From assembly GCA_005239175.1 (NCBI GenBank), contig SOPS01000001.1, forward strand, positions 620,001-684,000: 64,000 bases of DNA, given 5' to 3'. Each line of letters opens with the position of its first letter. Within the stretch, counting starts at the first letter, position 1. This stretch comes from a halophilic archaeon SHRA6. Its GTDB lineage: Archaea; Halobacteriota; Halobacteria; Halobacteriales; Haloferacaceae. A program made the translations under genes and the position numbers. This document shows, piece after piece, positions 6,048 through 53,622 of the stretch. The notes beneath the pieces were generated by a model. It had not been told where the DNA came from. It was given only the letters and a program-made list of their open reading frames with translations, and did not search any database.

Positions 6048-7445
6048 TCACGCGAGTGTGCCGAACCGGATTGCGAAGTACACGACACACGCAAGCGCCA
6101 TGATCCACTGGAACGGGTGAACCTGATCGGTTCGACCCGCAGCGACGGAGACGATTGGATAGCTGAGCAGCCCGGCGGCGATCCCGTAGGCGATGCTCGA
6201 TGTCAGCGGCATGATCATGATAGTCAGCCCTGCCGGAATCGCGTGGGTGATATCATCCCAGGCGATCTCGACAACGTTTCGCAGCATCATCACGGCCACA
6301 ACGACGAGCGCCACGTACGGTGCGAACGAGGGGATCGCCCCCAGAAGAGGCACGAACGGCAGCGCAAGGAGGAACAGTCCGGCGACGACGAGCGCGGTCA
6401 GGCCGGTCCGGCCGCCCTCGCCGATGCCTGCGGCCGATTCGATATACGTAGTTACCGTCGAGGTCCCCAGGATTCCGCCAACGGTCGTCCCCACAGCATC
6501 GGCCATGAGCGGTTTGTCGATGTCCGGGAGGTTCCCGGAGTCGTCGGTCATTCCCGCGGCCTGACCCAAGCCAGTGAGGGTGCCGGCGGTGTCGAAGAAG
6601 TCGACGAAAAAGAACGTGAACACGACGAGCGCGAAGGTGAGCGCCTCGACGTTGGCAAAGCCTGTAATGAACGCACCCGCGAGCGGCGCGATGTTGAACG
6701 CCTCGGCGCCGTAGGTGATCGAGTTGAATCCGGGTGCGAAGGTCGCGGTCTCAACGAGCCCGAGATCGCCACCGCCAGACTGCGGTGTGACGCCGATCGC
6801 CGAGGCCAGGTACGCGACGGCGCTCGTCAGGAGGATACCGATCACGATCGCCCCACGAACCCCGCGGGCCCACAGCGCGAACGTGAGCAAGATCCCAAGA
6901 ACCGCAAGCACCGCGACCGGATCGGTCGCGATAATCGGGTTGATACTGACCTCGGCGGTGATGATCCGCATCTGTTCGAGGCCGATCAGCGCCAAGAACA
7001 GCCCGATCCCAGCAGCGACCGAGAGCTTCACCGGCTCTGGGAACAGCCGGATGACGTACTCACGCGCGCCGATCGCCGTCAGAATGATGAACAACACGCC
7101 TTCGAGAAAGATGGCGGACAGCGCGGTCTGCCACGGAATTCCCAGTTCAAGCACAACGACCACAAAGAAGGCGTTCAGTCCCATCCCCGGCGCTAATCCG
7201 AAGGGGAGATCGGCGTAGAAGGCCATGACGAGCATCGCGGCGACCGACGCAAGGATCGTCACGACAGCAAGCAGTTGGAAGGTGTTCTCACCGGCGTCGA
7301 TCGCCGACGAGAGGATCGCCGGGTTCACCACGATGATGTACGACATCGTGAGGAACGTCGTCAGGCCAGCGATTGCCTCGGTTGTAACGGTACTGTCTCG
7401 CTCGGTTACGTTGAAATATGCTGATAGGCTATCTGTGAGCCCCAT
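6048..7445 (-). CDS. NCS2/AzgA-family purine permease (guanine/hypoxanthine type)
   Basis: 465 residues with 12-14 predicted membrane helices. Recognisable AzgA/PbuG signatures are the N-terminal TTEAIAGLTTFLTMSYIIVVNP, the segment PFGLAPGMGLNAFF, and FFVDFFDTAGTLTGLG. The family imports guanine, hypoxanthine or adenine by proton or ion symport. The putative phosphoribosyltransferase-type regulator lies directly upstream on the same strand, and both genes carry a near-identical element upstream of their promoters (7479-7499 and 8363-8382). Purine-responsive control is therefore likely. The start ATG at 7445 sits 27 nt from a TATA-like TAAAATTT. Confidence 0.9.
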   Translation of the reverse strand: MGLTDSLSAYFNVTERDSTVTTEAIAGLTTFLTMSYIIVVNPAILSSAIDAGENTFQLLAVVTILASVAAMLVMAFYADLPFGLAPGMGLNAFFVVVVLELGIPWQTALSAIFLEGVLFIILTAIGAREYVIRLFPEPVKLSVAAGIGLFLALIGLEQMRIITAEVSINPIIATDPVAVLAVLGILLTFALWARGVRGAIVIGILLTSAVAYLASAIGVTPQSGGGDLGLVETATFAPGFNSITYGAEAFNIAPLAGAFITGFANVEALTFALVVFTFFFVDFFDTAGTLTGLGQAAGMTDDSGNLPDIDKPLMADAVGTTVGGILGTSTVTTYIESAAGIGEGGRTGLTALVVAGLFLLALPFVPLLGAIPSFAPYVALVVVAVMMLRNVVEIAWDDITHAIPAGLTIMIMPLTSSIAYGIAAGLLSYPIVSVAAGRTDQVHPFQWIMALACVVYFAIRFGTLA

Positions 7446-45373: not shown

Positions 45374-45775
45374 TCAGTTGGAGTATTCAGGTTCTAACGG
45401 TATCCGATCGAGGCCAACAGTATCGTAGTCTTGTTCCGTCGAAAGAACGCGCGTTTTTGTTGTCGTGACGAATCCAGCGTGAAGCGCATCAAACGGGGTC
45501 AGATCGTATTCATCAATGAACGCTGCAGCGGCCAGCACTACATCCTCATGTGTGTTCGGTCGGATCGGAACCAGTTCGAGAAGGTTAGTAATCGCCCGCG
45601 GCACATCAATGTCGTACGCAGCAGCCTCGCGGTCGTAAAACAATACCAAGACCTCGGCGTATGCGAGTATTGAGGTATGGATATCCTCATGCTCTTCGAG
45701 CGCGCGGATAGCAGCATCCTGAAGCCAATCGTCGTCTTTCACTAGCGCAGTGAGAAAATCAGTTTCGACATACAC
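45374..45775 (-). CDS. vapC: VapC-type PIN-domain toxin ribonuclease
   Basis: 133 residues. The PIN-domain acidic residues are visible: Asp6 in MYVETDF, Glu in ILAYAEVLVL, Asp in TPFDALHAGF and Asp in STEQDYD. VapC toxins cut tRNA or rRNA. The gene is 3 nt downstream of its AbrB-type antitoxin on the same strand. Haloarchaeal length and motif spacing are normal, so it is probably active. Confidence 0.9.
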   Translation of the reverse strand: MYVETDFLTALVKDDDWLQDAAIRALEEHEDIHTSILAYAEVLVLFYDREAAAYDIDVPRAITNLLELVPIRPNTHEDVVLAAAAFIDEYDLTPFDALHAGFVTTTKTRVLSTEQDYDTVGLDRIPLEPEYSN

Positions 45776-45778
45776 GGT

Positions 45779-46045
45779 TCACTCCTCGCTATCTTTCGAC
45801 CGATCTTGTGCTTCCGCTCGAGCCTCTTGGGCGATCGACTCGCGCACATCCGTTTTCATCTCGTCGATAGCTGTCTCTGCAAACGCATCACCAACAGCTG
45901 CTCGGAGGCCGTCTACTGGGTCTTCGTCGACCGGAAAGAGCGCAACGTGGCTTGGGAGTTCGACAATTCGATACTGGTCACCGAATCGTTCACGGATATC
46001 TTTTGGAAGGTAGATCCGCCCCCGTTCATCTGTCGACTTCGACAT
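45779..46045 (-). CDS. vapB: AbrB-family antitoxin VapB
   Basis: 88 residues. The AbrB/MazE swapped-hairpin DNA-binding motif is KSTDERGRIYLPKDIRERFG with YRIVELPSHVALFP (residues 3-40). The C-terminal helical tail (MKTDVRESIAQEARAEAQDR) would wrap the toxin. It pairs with the adjacent vapC. The start MSKSTDERG at 46045 is supported by the promoter/operator 20-43 nt upstream. Negative autoregulation is expected for this family. Confidence 0.88.
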   Translation of the reverse strand: MSKSTDERGRIYLPKDIRERFGDQYRIVELPSHVALFPVDEDPVDGLRAAVGDAFAETAIDEMKTDVRESIAQEARAEAQDRSKDSEE

Positions 46046-46064
46046 AGCGTGTATATGTGTCATA

Positions 46065-46088
46065 CGGGAAAATATATGAATATTCCCG
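46065..46088 (-). promoter_or_regulatory. vapBC promoter with CGGGAA/TTCCCG inverted repeat
   Basis: CGGGAA (46065-46070) and TTCCCG (46083-46088) flank a 12-bp AT-rich core containing the minus-strand TATA box ATATATTTT. The box is about 28 nt before the vapB start (46045), so the mRNA is leaderless. A palindrome enclosing the TATA box is the expected target for AbrB-type autorepression. Confidence 0.55.
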
Positions 46089-46120
46089 TGTCCCTGATCG
46101 ATCGCAGCAGCGATCCGTTC

Positions 46121-46128
46121 GTTTAACC
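46121..46128 (+). promoter_or_regulatory. TATA box of pyrE
   Basis: GTTTAACC is centred 28 nt before the ATG at 46153, predicting a leaderless pyrE transcript divergent from vapBC. Confidence 0.6.
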
Positions 46129-46152
46129 GCCTGGACTGCGCTGTGATTGCTA

Positions 46153-46677
46153 ATGGTCGACAGCGAACTGATCGCAGCACTTCGGGACGCAGAGGCGGTG
46201 CAGTACGGCGAATTCGAACTCTCTCACGGCGGAACGAGCAGCTACTACGTCGACAAGTACCTCTTCGAGACTGACCCGGTCTGTCTGGACCTGATCGCCG
46301 CGGCGTTCGCCGATCGCATCGGCGAGGAGACGCTTGCGGGCGTCGCCCTCGGGGCCGTCCCGCTCGTCTCCGTCACCGCTGTTGAGACGGAAAAACCGTA
46401 CGTGATCGTCCGCAAGAAAACAAAGGAGTACGGGACCGCAAACCGGATCGAAGGCCGCCTCTCGGCGGGCGATCAGGTCGTTGTCCTCGAAGATATTGCA
46501 ACGACCGGCAAGAGCGCCCTTGATGCAGTCGAGGCGCTCCGCGAGGCCGGGGCGGTCGTCGATCGCGTGCTCGTCGTCGTCGATCGTGATGAGGGTGCCG
46601 CCGAACTGCTCGCAGACCACGACGTGCAACTCGAAGCGCTCGTGACAGCCGAAGATCTCCTGGACGCCGATGCGTAG
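46153..46677 (+). CDS. pyrE: Orotate phosphoribosyltransferase
   Basis: 174 residues. [36 protein letters not shown] and the PRPP loop [19 protein letters not shown] are diagnostic for PyrE. It makes orotidine monophosphate in de novo pyrimidine synthesis. The ATG at 46153 ([10 protein letters not shown]) is supported by the TATA box at 46121. It is divergent from vapBC. Confidence 0.95.
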
Positions 46678-50163: not shown

Positions 50164-51216
50164 ATGTCAGATAAGACACGACGGCGGTTTTTGCAACTTA
50201 CTGGTGGAGTTGGGGCGATCACACTGGCTGGCTGTACAGGCAGTGATGGAGCGGAAGAAGGGATGGATGAGGATGGAATGGACGATGACGAGATGGACGA
50301 TGACGGGATGGGCGACGAAGAGATGGACGATGACGGCATGGATGAAGATGGAATGAATGATGAGGAGATGGACGGTACGGATCCTGCAGAAGCACCACGT
50401 GCCTCCATCGATCGCTTCAGCGAGGCCGCCGGGACGTTGTTGGTACGCAACGACGACAACGCGCTTCCGGGCCCCGACGAACCGATCGATTTCGATCAAG
50501 CGCCGTTCATCACGCAGGGACTCGGCCCCGACGGCGAAACGGTACAGTACTACAACTTCGACGTCCAGCCGACGACGCCAGCGCCGATCTACGCCTTCTT
50601 CTACGAGAACGGAGACCCAGTCGAAGAGCAGCTGAACATTGTCGACGTCATCCCCGGCGACGAGGGCTATAACGACTTTTGGCAGGTGAACATGGTGACT
50701 GTCCCCGAGGAGTACGTACCAAACACGGTAACCAGTGTCGCCGGAATTTCCGAGGCGGGCTACGACATCGAGCCGACAAACACCATCAAAAACTGTCCGA
50801 TCGTCCCCGAGGGATCAACGGCCGCACAACATGCGGGTGACGATCACGATGAGGCCCCCGTCGTGCAGGGCTGGTATGACAGCCAGGTTGTGGAGTACTT
50901 CCTCTTCGAGGAGGACAGCTTCGAGACCATGGACAGCAGCGTTCCGCTTTCGCCGATCTACGTCACCTTCAACACGAATCCAGGCCAGGATGGCGGCGGT
51001 CCCGAATCCGGCTTCAGGACCGAAGACGACAGTACACAGACGCACAACGTTGTTGGGACGCTGCCGGGCGATGCCGGCTACTCGCCGCTTTGGCGGGTCA
51101 CCGTCTACGACAACGCGGACTTCGACGACGTCTCGGATCTCGATTCCGCGATGGATGCGACCATTCTCGACGACGAAGCAGCGCACGTCAACTGTCCGAT
51201 CGTCTCAGTCGAGTAA
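50164..51216 (+). CDS. Tat-exported lipoprotein with Met/Asp-rich linker and duplicated domain
   Basis: 350 residues. SDKTRRRFLQLTGG is a twin-arginine signal, and LAGC24 a lipobox. Residues 25-72 are a Met/Asp/Glu/Gly linker with Met every four or five residues (GMDEDGMDDDEMDDDGMGDE). The rest is two homologous halves. Half 1 has APIYAFFYENGD, DVIPGDEGYNDFWQVNM and NCPIVPEG; half 2 has SPIYVTFNTNPG, TLPGDAGYSPLWRVTVY and NCPIVSVE. The protein would sit on the outer face of the membrane. The linker could bind metal ions. The following gene encodes a molybdoenzyme, so an electron-transfer or substrate-binding partner role is plausible but unproven. Confidence 0.75.
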   Translation: MSDKTRRRFLQLTGGVGAITLAGCTGSDGAEEGMDEDGMDDDEMDDDGMGDEEMDDDGMDEDGMNDEEMDGTDPAEAPRASIDRFSEAAGTLLVRNDDNALPGPDEPIDFDQAPFITQGLGPDGETVQYYNFDVQPTTPAPIYAFFYENGDPVEEQLNIVDVIPGDEGYNDFWQVNMVTVPEEYVPNTVTSVAGISEAGYDIEPTNTIKNCPIVPEGSTAAQHAGDDHDEAPVVQGWYDSQVVEYFLFEEDSFETMDSSVPLSPIYVTFNTNPGQDGGGPESGFRTEDDSTQTHNVVGTLPGDAGYSPLWRVTVYDNADFDDVSDLDSAMDATILDDEAAHVNCPIVSVE

Positions 51217-51333: not shown

Positions 51334-51465
51334 ATGAACACTGTCGAGATCTCCGCAGACATCGATGATCGGCGGTATACGCGCGGAGTCCCAACTACTG
51401 CTGAGTTACAATTAATGGTGGATGAAGGCAATCATTCGGCTGCTAAAAGGAGGGTGTTCGTGTGA
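51334..51465 (+). CDS. Possible 43-residue leader peptide or small protein
   Basis: MNTVEISADIDDRRYTRGVP is followed by TTAELQLMVDEG and ends FV-stop. Its TGA overlaps the ATG of the molybdoenzyme gene (TGATG), and an AGGAGGG Shine-Dalgarno-like sequence lies inside its end. These features suit translational coupling, but there is no clear promoter and the amino-acid sequence is not recognised. It may be fortuitous. Confidence 0.3.
   Translation: MNTVEISADIDDRRYTRGVPTTAELQLMVDEGNHSAAKRRVFV
51446..51453 (+). promoter_or_regulatory. Strong Shine-Dalgarno-like site before the molybdoenzyme gene
   Basis: AAAGGAGGGTG (51445-51455), containing AGGAGGG, lies about 11 nt before the ATG at 51465. 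Such sites are uncommon in a region where most genes are leaderless, and indicate that this gene is read from an internal position of a longer mRNA. Confidence 0.5.
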
Positions 51466-52946
51466 TGCGGTATCCAACACGATCGGAGTCGATCGTTGCG
51501 ATCCTCGCTGGGATCACCGCCGTCGTTGGCTCCTTCGCAATGGCCGGCTACACGCGGTCATTCGTCATGCAGCCGGTCGATGACTTTGTTGTCAATACGA
51601 CACCAGGTGTAATCTCACAGTTCATGATTGAAAACGTCGGCCAGGCGGCTCATCATCTCCATCGGGCGCTGTCGGTGTTGATCCTCGTTGGGCTCTTCGG
51701 CGTGTTTGCACTCGGTGGCTTCGCCGTTGCCAGACGCTTCGATACAGCGGTGGCCGGTATCGGCTTTGCAGGGCTGGGTAGTTGGGCGCTAACAGTCGCG
51801 CTAACTGGTGAACCAGTACTTGCACTTGGATCTTCGGTCCCCGTTGCGTTGTTCACCGCAATCGGCACCGTGCCACAACCAATCGAACCGACCAGTTCAC
51901 GGCGGCGGGTGCTGGCCGCGAGCGCTGGGGCGATCGGATTCGTCGGCCTCGGACTCGGTGCTGGCAGCCTCCTTCACGAAAGCGAACTCGAAATCGACGA
52001 GCAGGTTCCCGGTATCGAGGGTGAAGCGATCGAACAACAGTTCCAGCAAGCCAGAAATCAGGAACTCGATGTTGCCAGCGACGAACTGCCAGGGCTCGTC
52101 AGTACGATCGACAACTTCTTTCGGACGAGCATCTCTGATTTCGATCCGACGATCCCATCGGAGGACTGGACACTGACGGTCACCGGGGAGGTCGGGATGG
52201 ACACGGAGATCGGATACGAGCAGTTGACCGAGATGCCGATCGAACACCGGACAATGACGCTGCGGTGTGTTGGAGAGAGCCTCAATGGAAAGAAGCTGGA
52301 TACGGCTATCTGGACCGGGACACCGATCAGGTCCCTCCTTGATTCGGTCGACCCAGACGGCGAGTGTGGGTGTGTGATGCTCCACGGCGAAGACGGCTAC
52401 TACGTCCAGTTCCCAGTCGACGTGCTGGAAGATGGCTTTCTGGCCTGGGGGATGAACGGCCAGCCGCTCCCCCGGAAGAACGGCCATCCCGTCCGCCTGC
52501 TCGTTCCGGGCCACTGGGGAGAGACGAATGTCAAGTGGATTGAAACAATCGAACTGCTCGAAGAACCAGCGGACGGCTACTGGGAAGAACGCGGCTGGGA
52601 GGGGACCGGGCCCGTCAATACCGTTGCCAAGCTCTGGGAAGAGGGCGTCACCGAACTGTCAAACGGAAGGGTGGAACTCGCTGGGCACGCCTACGCAGGA
52701 ACGCGTGCCATCGAAAGCGTTGAGGTTTCGATAGATGGCGGCGAAACGTGGAACGAGGCAACGCTATCTGTACCGTTGCCAGACGAGGATGTCTGGCGAA
52801 TGTGGCGCTACGAATTTGAGCCGGCGGACAGCCACGAGATCGTTGTCCGAGCAACTGATGGCAACGGCAACCTGCAGGAACAGCGTCGATCAAGTCCGTC
52901 TCCGAGCGGGGCGACCGGGTGGGTCAAAAGAACAATCAATGGATGA
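51465..52946 (+). CDS. Membrane-anchored molybdopterin oxidoreductase (sulfite oxidase family)
   Basis: 493 residues. Four or so N-terminal membrane helices (about 8-140; SIVAILAGITAVVGSFAMAG, LHRALSVLILVGLFGVFALG) include an AHHLHR patch. A further hydrophobic segment (LAASAGAIGFVGLGLGAGSL) precedes the catalytic part. The Mo-pterin domain starts near residue 215. Cys268 in TLRCVGESLNGKKLDTAIWT is the expected molybdenum ligand, followed by HPVRLLVPGHWGETNVKWIE. The C-terminal dimerisation-type Ig domain (VELAGHAYAGTRAIESVEVS) completes the sulfite-oxidase layout. The substrate is unknown. It is probably co-transcribed with the lipoprotein gene. Confidence 0.85.
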   Translation: MRYPTRSESIVAILAGITAVVGSFAMAGYTRSFVMQPVDDFVVNTTPGVISQFMIENVGQAAHHLHRALSVLILVGLFGVFALGGFAVARRFDTAVAGIGFAGLGSWALTVALTGEPVLALGSSVPVALFTAIGTVPQPIEPTSSRRRVLAASAGAIGFVGLGLGAGSLLHESELEIDEQVPGIEGEAIEQQFQQARNQELDVASDELPGLVSTIDNFFRTSISDFDPTIPSEDWTLTVTGEVGMDTEIGYEQLTEMPIEHRTMTLRCVGESLNGKKLDTAIWTGTPIRSLLDSVDPDGECGCVMLHGEDGYYVQFPVDVLEDGFLAWGMNGQPLPRKNGHPVRLLVPGHWGETNVKWIETIELLEEPADGYWEERGWEGTGPVNTVAKLWEEGVTELSNGRVELAGHAYAGTRAIESVEVSIDGGETWNEATLSVPLPDEDVWRMWRYEFEPADSHEIVVRATDGNGNLQEQRRSSPSPSGATGWVKRTING

Positions 52947-53044
52947 TAAAATCGTACAGGTACGAGCCGTTGGAGTTGTCCTCAACGGAGGGTAGAGATG
53001 TCGAAACGTCTTTGATTACAGGGTTTGGACCACCTACACAGCCA

Positions 53045-53320
53045 ATGGAGAAGGCCCTATGGTACCTATTTGCTGGCACGCGCGGGGGGACAAACAGGGT
53101 CCGCATCGTCGATGAGCTCTCCAATCGGCCACGGAACGCAAACGAACTGGCGGAGAAACTGGCAGTCGATTACAACACGATTACCCACCATCTGGATATG
53201 CTCGAAGAACACAACGTCGTCGAACCGAGCGACCACGATTACGGAAAGCTGTATTTCCTGACCGATCAGTTCAAACAACACGAGGAGACGTTCGAACGGA
53301 TCGCCGAAGAGGTAGTGTGA
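53045..53320 (+). CDS. ArsR-like winged-helix transcriptional regulator
   Basis: 91 residues: RVRIVDELSNRPRNANELAE, LAVDYNTITHHLDMLEEHNV and YGKLYFLTDQF are a compact winged helix. This is a common haloarchaeal type that is often paired with a small membrane protein, as here (the next gene begins at or near its stop). The start MEKALWYLFAG matches the family; an in-frame extension to 52919 overlaps the molybdoenzyme gene. It probably controls the redox cluster, but that is inference from position. Confidence 0.8.
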   Translation: MEKALWYLFAGTRGGTNRVRIVDELSNRPRNANELAEKLAVDYNTITHHLDMLEEHNVVEPSDHDYGKLYFLTDQFKQHEETFERIAEEVV

Positions 53321-53322
53321 CA

Positions 53323-53622
53323 ATGGCGACTGAAGGGTTCAGGCTGATCGGGATGGTGCTTTCGGGGATCAACAGCGCAATGCTTCTGGTGTTGCTTTCT
53401 GTCTGGCTGCGGAACTACCGGAAGTTCCGCTCGAATATGGTGCTCGGGTTGGTCGGATTCAGCGGAGTCCTCCTACTGGAGAATCTGATTGCCGTGTTCT
53501 TCTTTTTTAGAGGTATGCAGATGCTGTACTCCTCGGATCCAGTGATCGGTCAAGTAGTCATCGCGATGCGGGTGCTTGAGTTGGTCGCGATCGGATTTCT
53601 GACCTACGTGACTGTGCAGTAG
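53323..53622 (+). CDS. Small haloarchaeal membrane protein paired with the winged-helix gene
   Basis: 99 residues from ATG at 53323 (a GTG at 53317 would overlap the regulator stop). Three membrane helices are visible: LIGMVLSGINSAMLLVLLSV, MVLGLVGFSGVLLLENLIAV and VIAMRVLELVAIGFLTYVTV, joined by short charged loops. A winged-helix gene followed by such a membrane protein recurs in haloarchaea (from memory) and may form a membrane-linked switch. Confidence 0.7.
   Translation: MATEGFRLIGMVLSGINSAMLLVLLSVWLRNYRKFRSNMVLGLVGFSGVLLLENLIAVFFFFRGMQMLYSSDPVIGQVVIAMRVLELVAIGFLTYVTVQ

Follow-up and report, generated by a model that had tools for sequence, protein, structure and literature searches.

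In haloarchaea, it is a methionine-rich acidic tether that goes with a membrane-bound molybdoenzyme of the sulfite oxidase family, and not the DUF7482 head to which the tether is joined in the halophilic archaeon SHRA6. The head is a movable, exchangeable module. We propose, with about an even chance of being right, that the tether scavenges oxidants sacrificially and that the enzyme would reduce its methionine sulfoxide. The tether and head of SHRA6 belong to a lipoprotein, presumably located at the cell surface, whose gene lies in the 64,000-nucleotide stretch of DNA analyzed here (the window). The lipoprotein and its neighbors have the following features:

50164..50235, + strand: Tat-like signal peptide with lipobox LAGC (residues 1–24), read by eye from the sequence
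50236..50376, + strand: Met-rich acidic tether (residues 25–71), the proposed oxidant-scavenging part, from Met spacing and composition
50377..50808, + strand: first half of the DUF7482 head (residues 72–215), with NCPIV at 50791–50805, from profile, alignment, and model
50809..51213, + strand: second half of the DUF7482 head (residues 216–350), with NCPIV at 51190–51204, from profile, alignment, and model
51465..52946, + strand: membrane-bound sulfite-oxidase-family molybdoenzyme with about five N-terminal membrane helices, a molybdopterin domain, and a Mo-co dimerisation domain (PF00174, 122 bits; PF03404, 35 bits)
52919..53320, + strand: ArsR-like HTH regulator (PF12840, 36 bits), kept beside the pair
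53317..53622, + strand: 101-aa membrane protein with about three hydrophobic helices, accompanying the HTH gene

The HTH frame shares its first bases with the enzyme gene, and the true start of the HTH gene is uncertain. Elsewhere in the window (45374–46180, reverse strand), PIN-domain-like and AbrB-like frames stand in tandem and resemble, by eye, a VapBC toxin–antitoxin pair.

Anatomy of the lipoprotein

The open frame at 50164–51213 on the forward strand encodes a protein of 350 amino acids (MSDKTRRRFLQLTGGVGAITLAGC). Its signal scores below the cut-offs of both TIGR01409 and Pfam TAT_signal (PF10518). Apart from the lipid-carrying Cys24, the only cysteines are Cys211 and Cys344, so that each half of the core has one, as a sequence-only reading of this DNA had stated. 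The tether contains eight methionines, at residues 34, 39, 44, 49, 54, 59, 64, and 69. That reading had correctly picked out a methionine-bearing linker but had described the residues as recurring every four or five positions; the spacing is exactly 5 throughout.

The core of the protein (residues 72–350) consists of two homologous halves, each closed by an NCPIV motif that contains the sole non-lipid cysteine of that half. Smith–Waterman alignment of the halves gave a score of 88, which none of 2000 shuffles reached (mean 32.8, SD 5.8, maximum 63). In blastp, one half found the other with an E-value of 2e-6, and profiles of the two halves, with 19 relatives each, matched one another with a probability of 97 and an E-value of 1e-10. 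An AlphaFold2 model of the core was obtained with a pLDDT of 86.9 and a pTM of 0.85 (the five models span 86.9 to 63.4). Strands and helix follow the same order in both predicted halves. Alignment, profiles, and predicted structure therefore uphold the duplication that had been proposed for the NCPIV domain.

The sequence-only reading had not recognized this domain. It is Pfam DUF7482 (PF24298), a domain without known function, whose cut-off of 27.5 bits is exceeded by the core with 35 bits. The alignment to this profile on the window protein covers residues 145–214 only, corresponding to profile positions 42–111 (70 of 257). Despite this partial match, the 279-residue core is conserved from end to end among its relatives, and a 32-row alignment of cores has 61 invariant columns. 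Our literature search on DUF7482 found neither the term nor a recorded function. When solved structures were searched by sequence with the lipoprotein, there were no matches up to an E-value of 10. Foldseek with the DUF7482 model returned a best E-value of 0.14 and nothing at 0.001 or better, and in VIA-align none of 565 chains reached a Z of 2 or more. The lack of a structural match does not prove that the predicted head is a new fold. Rows for the cupredoxins azurin and copper nitrite reductase (TM-score about 0.1) were too weak to serve as evidence. Because bacterial copies sit on lipoprotein-like chains and, in L023, occur together with cohesin and spondin-like domains, our guess is that the head may be an extracellular binding or positioning module.

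The tether, not the head, follows the enzyme

The molybdoenzyme at 51465–52946 is the next recognized gene on the same strand, and the sequence-only reading had pointed out this neighbor. It is present in 236 of 391 haloarchaeal genomes (E 1e-60). The DUF7482 core is patchy, being found in 34 of the 391, with two of the copies truncated or remnant (G115 and G021). A contig scan for relatives of the lipoprotein yielded 34 loci: 20 haloarchaeal and 13 bacterial loci with a whole or partial core, and L035, where the match is to signal and tether only and there is no core. The DUF7482 gene adjoins the enzyme in 6 of the 20 named haloarchaeal loci and in none of the 13 bacterial loci. Among 29 further haloarchaeal loci with 1.5-kb flanks, it lies beside the enzyme in 7, one of these being an enzyme fragment; the two haloarchaeal sets share species. 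Genes for the HTH and 101-aa membrane proteins are both present in 8 of the 20 haloarchaeal loci, and the membrane protein occurs alone in 2 more. The NCPIV domain was rejected as the main link to the enzyme: adjacency is loose, the genome distributions differ, and other heads are found beside the enzyme.

The tether was followed in 56 enzyme loci that lack DUF7482. They come from among the listed matches of the enzyme search rather than from a lipoprotein search, and comprise 36 closer and 20 distant orthologs. Left out were a close match, G158, and twelve rows aligning only from about residue 134–188 (G307 to G152). Also outside the set are L118, which has no enzyme, and L116, L117, and L119, which are DUF7482 loci. 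One of the 36, G023, had shown a Met-rich lipoprotein before the 56 loci were tested. A lipoprotein was detected directly upstream, on the same strand, in 18 of the 56 loci (17 of the 36 closer and 1 of the 20 distant orthologs), and none was detected upstream in the other 38. Each of these 18 upstream lipoproteins has 4 or more Met per 40 residues, a density reached by 2 of 40 lipoproteins at other places in the same set of 80 haloarchaeal loci (Fisher p = 4e-13, treating related loci as independent). By group codes, the 18 come from nine genera. L118, one of the two Met-rich cases found elsewhere, has a DUF7482 remnant and the genes of the HTH and membrane proteins as neighbors. Nine of the 18 have no head, being signal and tether alone, and nine have a spondin-like head; two such heads that were scanned scored 17 and 23 bits against a Spond_N cut-off of 24. 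These counts use a looser lipobox rule and a threshold from 4 Met per 40, since a stricter lipoprotein rule combined with 5 Met per 40 left L115 and L134 undetected; either rule may miss lipoproteins.

Together, these data show that linkage to the molybdoenzyme is real and that it is tight for the Met-rich tether and loose for the NCPIV domain. The sequence-only reading was thus right in the direction of its link but placed it on the wrong part of the protein.

In 464 kb of the SHRA6 genome, 5 Met per 40 residues occurs only in the lipoprotein at 50164–51213, and one other frame reaches 4. A similarity search with the N terminus of the window protein retrieved 27 Tat lipoprotein loci, 22 of them with 3 or fewer Met per 40 and 5 Met-rich. 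Within about 1.5 kb, one of these five adjoins the enzyme, one adjoins HTH and membrane genes only, and three adjoin neither. A Tat lipoprotein at L040:1381–2172, with no molybdoenzyme nearby, has an acidic tether in which HM recurs (DDHMDDDHM) and which could, from its sequence, bind metal.

We measured 19 Met-rich tethers, namely the 18 upstream of the enzyme and that of L118. They contain 8–18% Met and 26–53% Asp plus Glu, and none has Cys, His, Trp, Phe, or Tyr. Neighboring methionines are exactly 5 residues apart in 105 of 175 intervals (60%), against 8% in shuffles. In 38 distinct DUF7482 tethers the same spacing accounts for 55 of 165 intervals, again against 8% in shuffles.

Methionine content was also compared with the presence of the enzyme. 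Thirty-two DUF7482 genomes were queried; seven lack a full-length enzyme, and G037 has fragments only. Tether Met is 2.7–11.6% in the 7 genomes without the enzyme and 9.7–17.1% in 23 with it (p = 2.8e-4, kinship ignored); the two groups do not differ in the length of the tether (p = 0.23). G321, G257, G037, G021, and G115, which have no complete tether or a broken gene, are absent from this comparison. The tree contains only three independent contrasts in Met content, with group means that all point in the same direction. A paired test with thresholds has two or fewer informative pairs, and a sign test on three contrasts cannot reach 0.05. Lower tether Met in genomes without the enzyme is suggestive only.

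The head has a history of its own. Window and full-length bacterial cores are about 56–66% identical, and the core is present in 4 of 296 genomes of the phylum of bacterium L026. On the tree, the window core groups with that of G285, which is 84% identical and belongs to a different family by group codes; the gene was therefore probably transferred. Spread of the head on plasmids was set aside, as a plasmid collection held no match to it. In the Poribacteria locus L023, cohesin, DUF7482 (25.8 bits, cut-off 27.5), Spond_N, and a secretion-tail domain form one chain. In the bacterial loci L022, L026, and L028, the DUF7482 gene comes after genes that were named, by sequence reading, as response regulator and histidine kinase. 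The whole 280-aa DUF7482 unit is present as two tandem copies in the bacterial loci L020, L024, L026, and L034, so that duplication of DUF7482 has taken place on two levels.

Several haloarchaeal loci are broken. In G021 (L118:6319–6669 and 6121–6240), an intact Met-only lipoprotein, a stop-interrupted DUF7482 remnant, and HTH and membrane genes are found together, and the locus looks as if the tether had survived the loss of its head. The DUF7482 head of G115 is truncated, and the adjoining enzyme is intact, whereas in G400 only a stop-containing fragment of the enzyme lies next to the head and another enzyme copy lies elsewhere in the genome (L116:5016–5405 and L117:4180–4476 for the G115 and G400 cases).

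Proposed function and rival explanations

For the pair of tether and enzyme we infer the following route. The lipid Cys would anchor the lipoprotein on the outer face of the membrane, holding out a flexible acidic tether whose many exposed methionines would be its only readily oxidized residues. These would react first with hypochlorite, chloramines, and other oxidants, yielding methionine sulfoxide. The membrane-integrated enzyme, with its catalytic domain placed outside the cell, would turn the sulfoxide back with electrons from the respiratory chain, and recycling of this kind would let the tether be recharged again and again. Regulation of the cluster probably falls to the HTH gene. The C-terminal head, be it DUF7482, spondin-like, or absent, may serve as an interchangeable module outside the cell, either positioning the tether or being itself protected by it. 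Several findings count against this reading: the enzyme is not MsrP by score or by fold, 38 of the 56 enzyme loci have no detected lipoprotein, three of the five Met-rich lipoproteins from the N-terminal search lie away from the enzyme, and bacterial DUF7482 proteins manage without the enzyme.

The affinities of the enzyme bear on a reading of the opposite direction, which we consider unlikely, namely that it oxidizes a sulfur compound (sulfite or, like SoxC, protein-bound sulfane) with the lipoprotein as a substrate-binding or electron-passing partner and the methionines merely as part of a flexible, salt-tolerant tether. The enzyme has the PF03404 dimerisation domain, and its model (pLDDT 75, pTM 0.57) aligns across the whole sulfite oxidase fold. 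The nearest structures are SoxC and sulfite dehydrogenases including SorA (Z 20–22 over about 285–290 residues; 2blf/2ca4, Z about 22), compared with a Z of 13 over 198 residues for Escherichia coli MsrP. The best NCBIfam matches, SorT, SoxC, and SorA, point the same way at 98–105 bits, yet these scores are far under the cut-offs of 420–600 (SorT, 105 bits against 570; SorA, 98 against 600). With the MsrP model NF003767 at 63 bits against 207, the NCBIfam scan places the enzyme in none of the four families. Furthermore, a 12-residue loop that follows the Mo-ligand Cys in SorA, and that carries an Arg, falls in a gap of the enzyme alignment; most motifs from 68 enzyme orthologs have Leu at Cys+5. 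A plain tether would also leave 12.9% Met at spacing 5 unexplained, when 22 of the 27 similar Tat lipoproteins are Met-poor. The Mo-ligand motif, RCVGE, has RCV and E in common with RCVEA of E. coli MsrP, and the SHRA6 genome contains no MsrP above cut-off. As far as its sequence goes, the enzyme could be either a sulfoxide reductase or a sulfur-compound dehydrogenase. Its haloarchaeal orthologs have an invariant CxC at 301/303, where the aligned E. coli MsrP has no Cys, and, close to the membrane part, a His63 that hardly varies; these residues are a possible redox or cofactor site.

The composition of the tethers speaks to two further explanations. The sequence-only reading had suggested that Cys or Met might hold metal, and a tether that binds Cu(I) or Ag(I) like methionine-motif metal proteins, in a cluster that handles metal stress, would fit the repeated Met along a flexible extracellular chain and the ArsR-like HTH gene. 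We nevertheless judge metal binding by the tether improbable. The 19 Met-rich tethers have neither Cys nor His, and MxxM, the spacing that characterizes Cu(I) sites, is almost absent (2 of 340 intervals overall, 0 of 175 in Met-rich lipoproteins). No metal transporter or cupredoxin was recognized among the seven window proteins scanned, and the molybdoenzyme partner would go unexplained. For the DUF7482 head, the fold searches yielded no significant match that would favor a part in metal binding or electron transfer. It is likewise improbable that the tether is a halophilic spacer arisen by tandem repetition of GATGAN-like DNA, with Met as a by-product. Other tethers of the SHRA6 genome and its relatives are Met-poor, and Met enrichment tracks the enzyme in nine genera with differing repeat units, even though the DNA is of low complexity, with an ATG every 15 bases, as such an origin would predict.

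On the preferred reading, that of an oxidant-scavenging tether restored by the enzyme, the Met-rich partner is a concrete candidate substrate for the enzyme of 236 of 391 haloarchaeal genomes and makes the sulfoxide question directly testable. Strongly sunlit brines are rich in halides, and it would make physiological sense there to defend the cell surface from hypohalous acids.

Comparison with known systems

Archaeal sulfite-oxidase-family enzymes are widespread, and none is known to act on methionine sulfoxide according to a review (PMC6211008). Our literature search returned no title describing a pair of Met-rich lipoprotein and sulfite-oxidase-family enzyme in haloarchaea or archaea, and neither 'molybd' nor 'methionine' appears in the main text of a screen of Haloferax with hypochlorite (PMC6267482). 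In bacterial systems, an exported Met-rich MXKDX protein and MsrPQ are induced by HOCl (PMC8315932; PMC4623255), and the MXKDX protein is regarded as a sacrificial hypochlorite sink that the enzyme restores (PMC8315932; PMC8692401; PMC4623255).

The haloarchaeal pair would share the logic of bacterial MrpX/MsrP and realize it with different parts. In MrpX/MXKDX with YedYZ (MsrPQ) of Azospira suillum and in BcrXQP of Brucella, as in the haloarchaeal pair, a charged, low-complexity chain rich in Met at pentapeptide spacing is exported, and its gene adjoins that of a molybdoenzyme of the sulfite oxidase family in which RCV surrounds the Mo-ligand Cys. Run on the window tether, the bacterial profile TIGR02953 (penta_MxKDx) gives 16.8 bits over residues 31–70, under its cut-off of 41. 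Unlike MrpX, the haloarchaeal chain is lipid-anchored and acidic, with Asp and Glu and no Lys, and often bears a folded head. The haloarchaeal enzyme differs from MsrPQ in that it includes membrane helices of its own as well as a dimerisation domain, and the cluster has an HTH gene instead of sigma and anti-sigma factors. Compared with SorA/SorT and SoxC, the enzyme has the same fold over about 285 residues, but it also has N-terminal membrane helices and the CxC at 301/303, falls below the NCBIfam cut-offs, and is missing the SorA loop after the Mo-ligand Cys. The Spondin_N-like lipoproteins of haloarchaea have the same kind of signal, the same Met-rich tether, and the same site upstream of the enzyme, and differ in the head. 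It is possible, though on balance we lean against it, that these parts amount to an independent second origin of Mo-dependent protein methionine sulfoxide reduction, with a membrane-tethered Met polymer, exchangeable heads, and a non-MsrP enzyme, together with a two-repeat DUF7482 fold that has no solved relative and was transferred between haloarchaea and bacteria.
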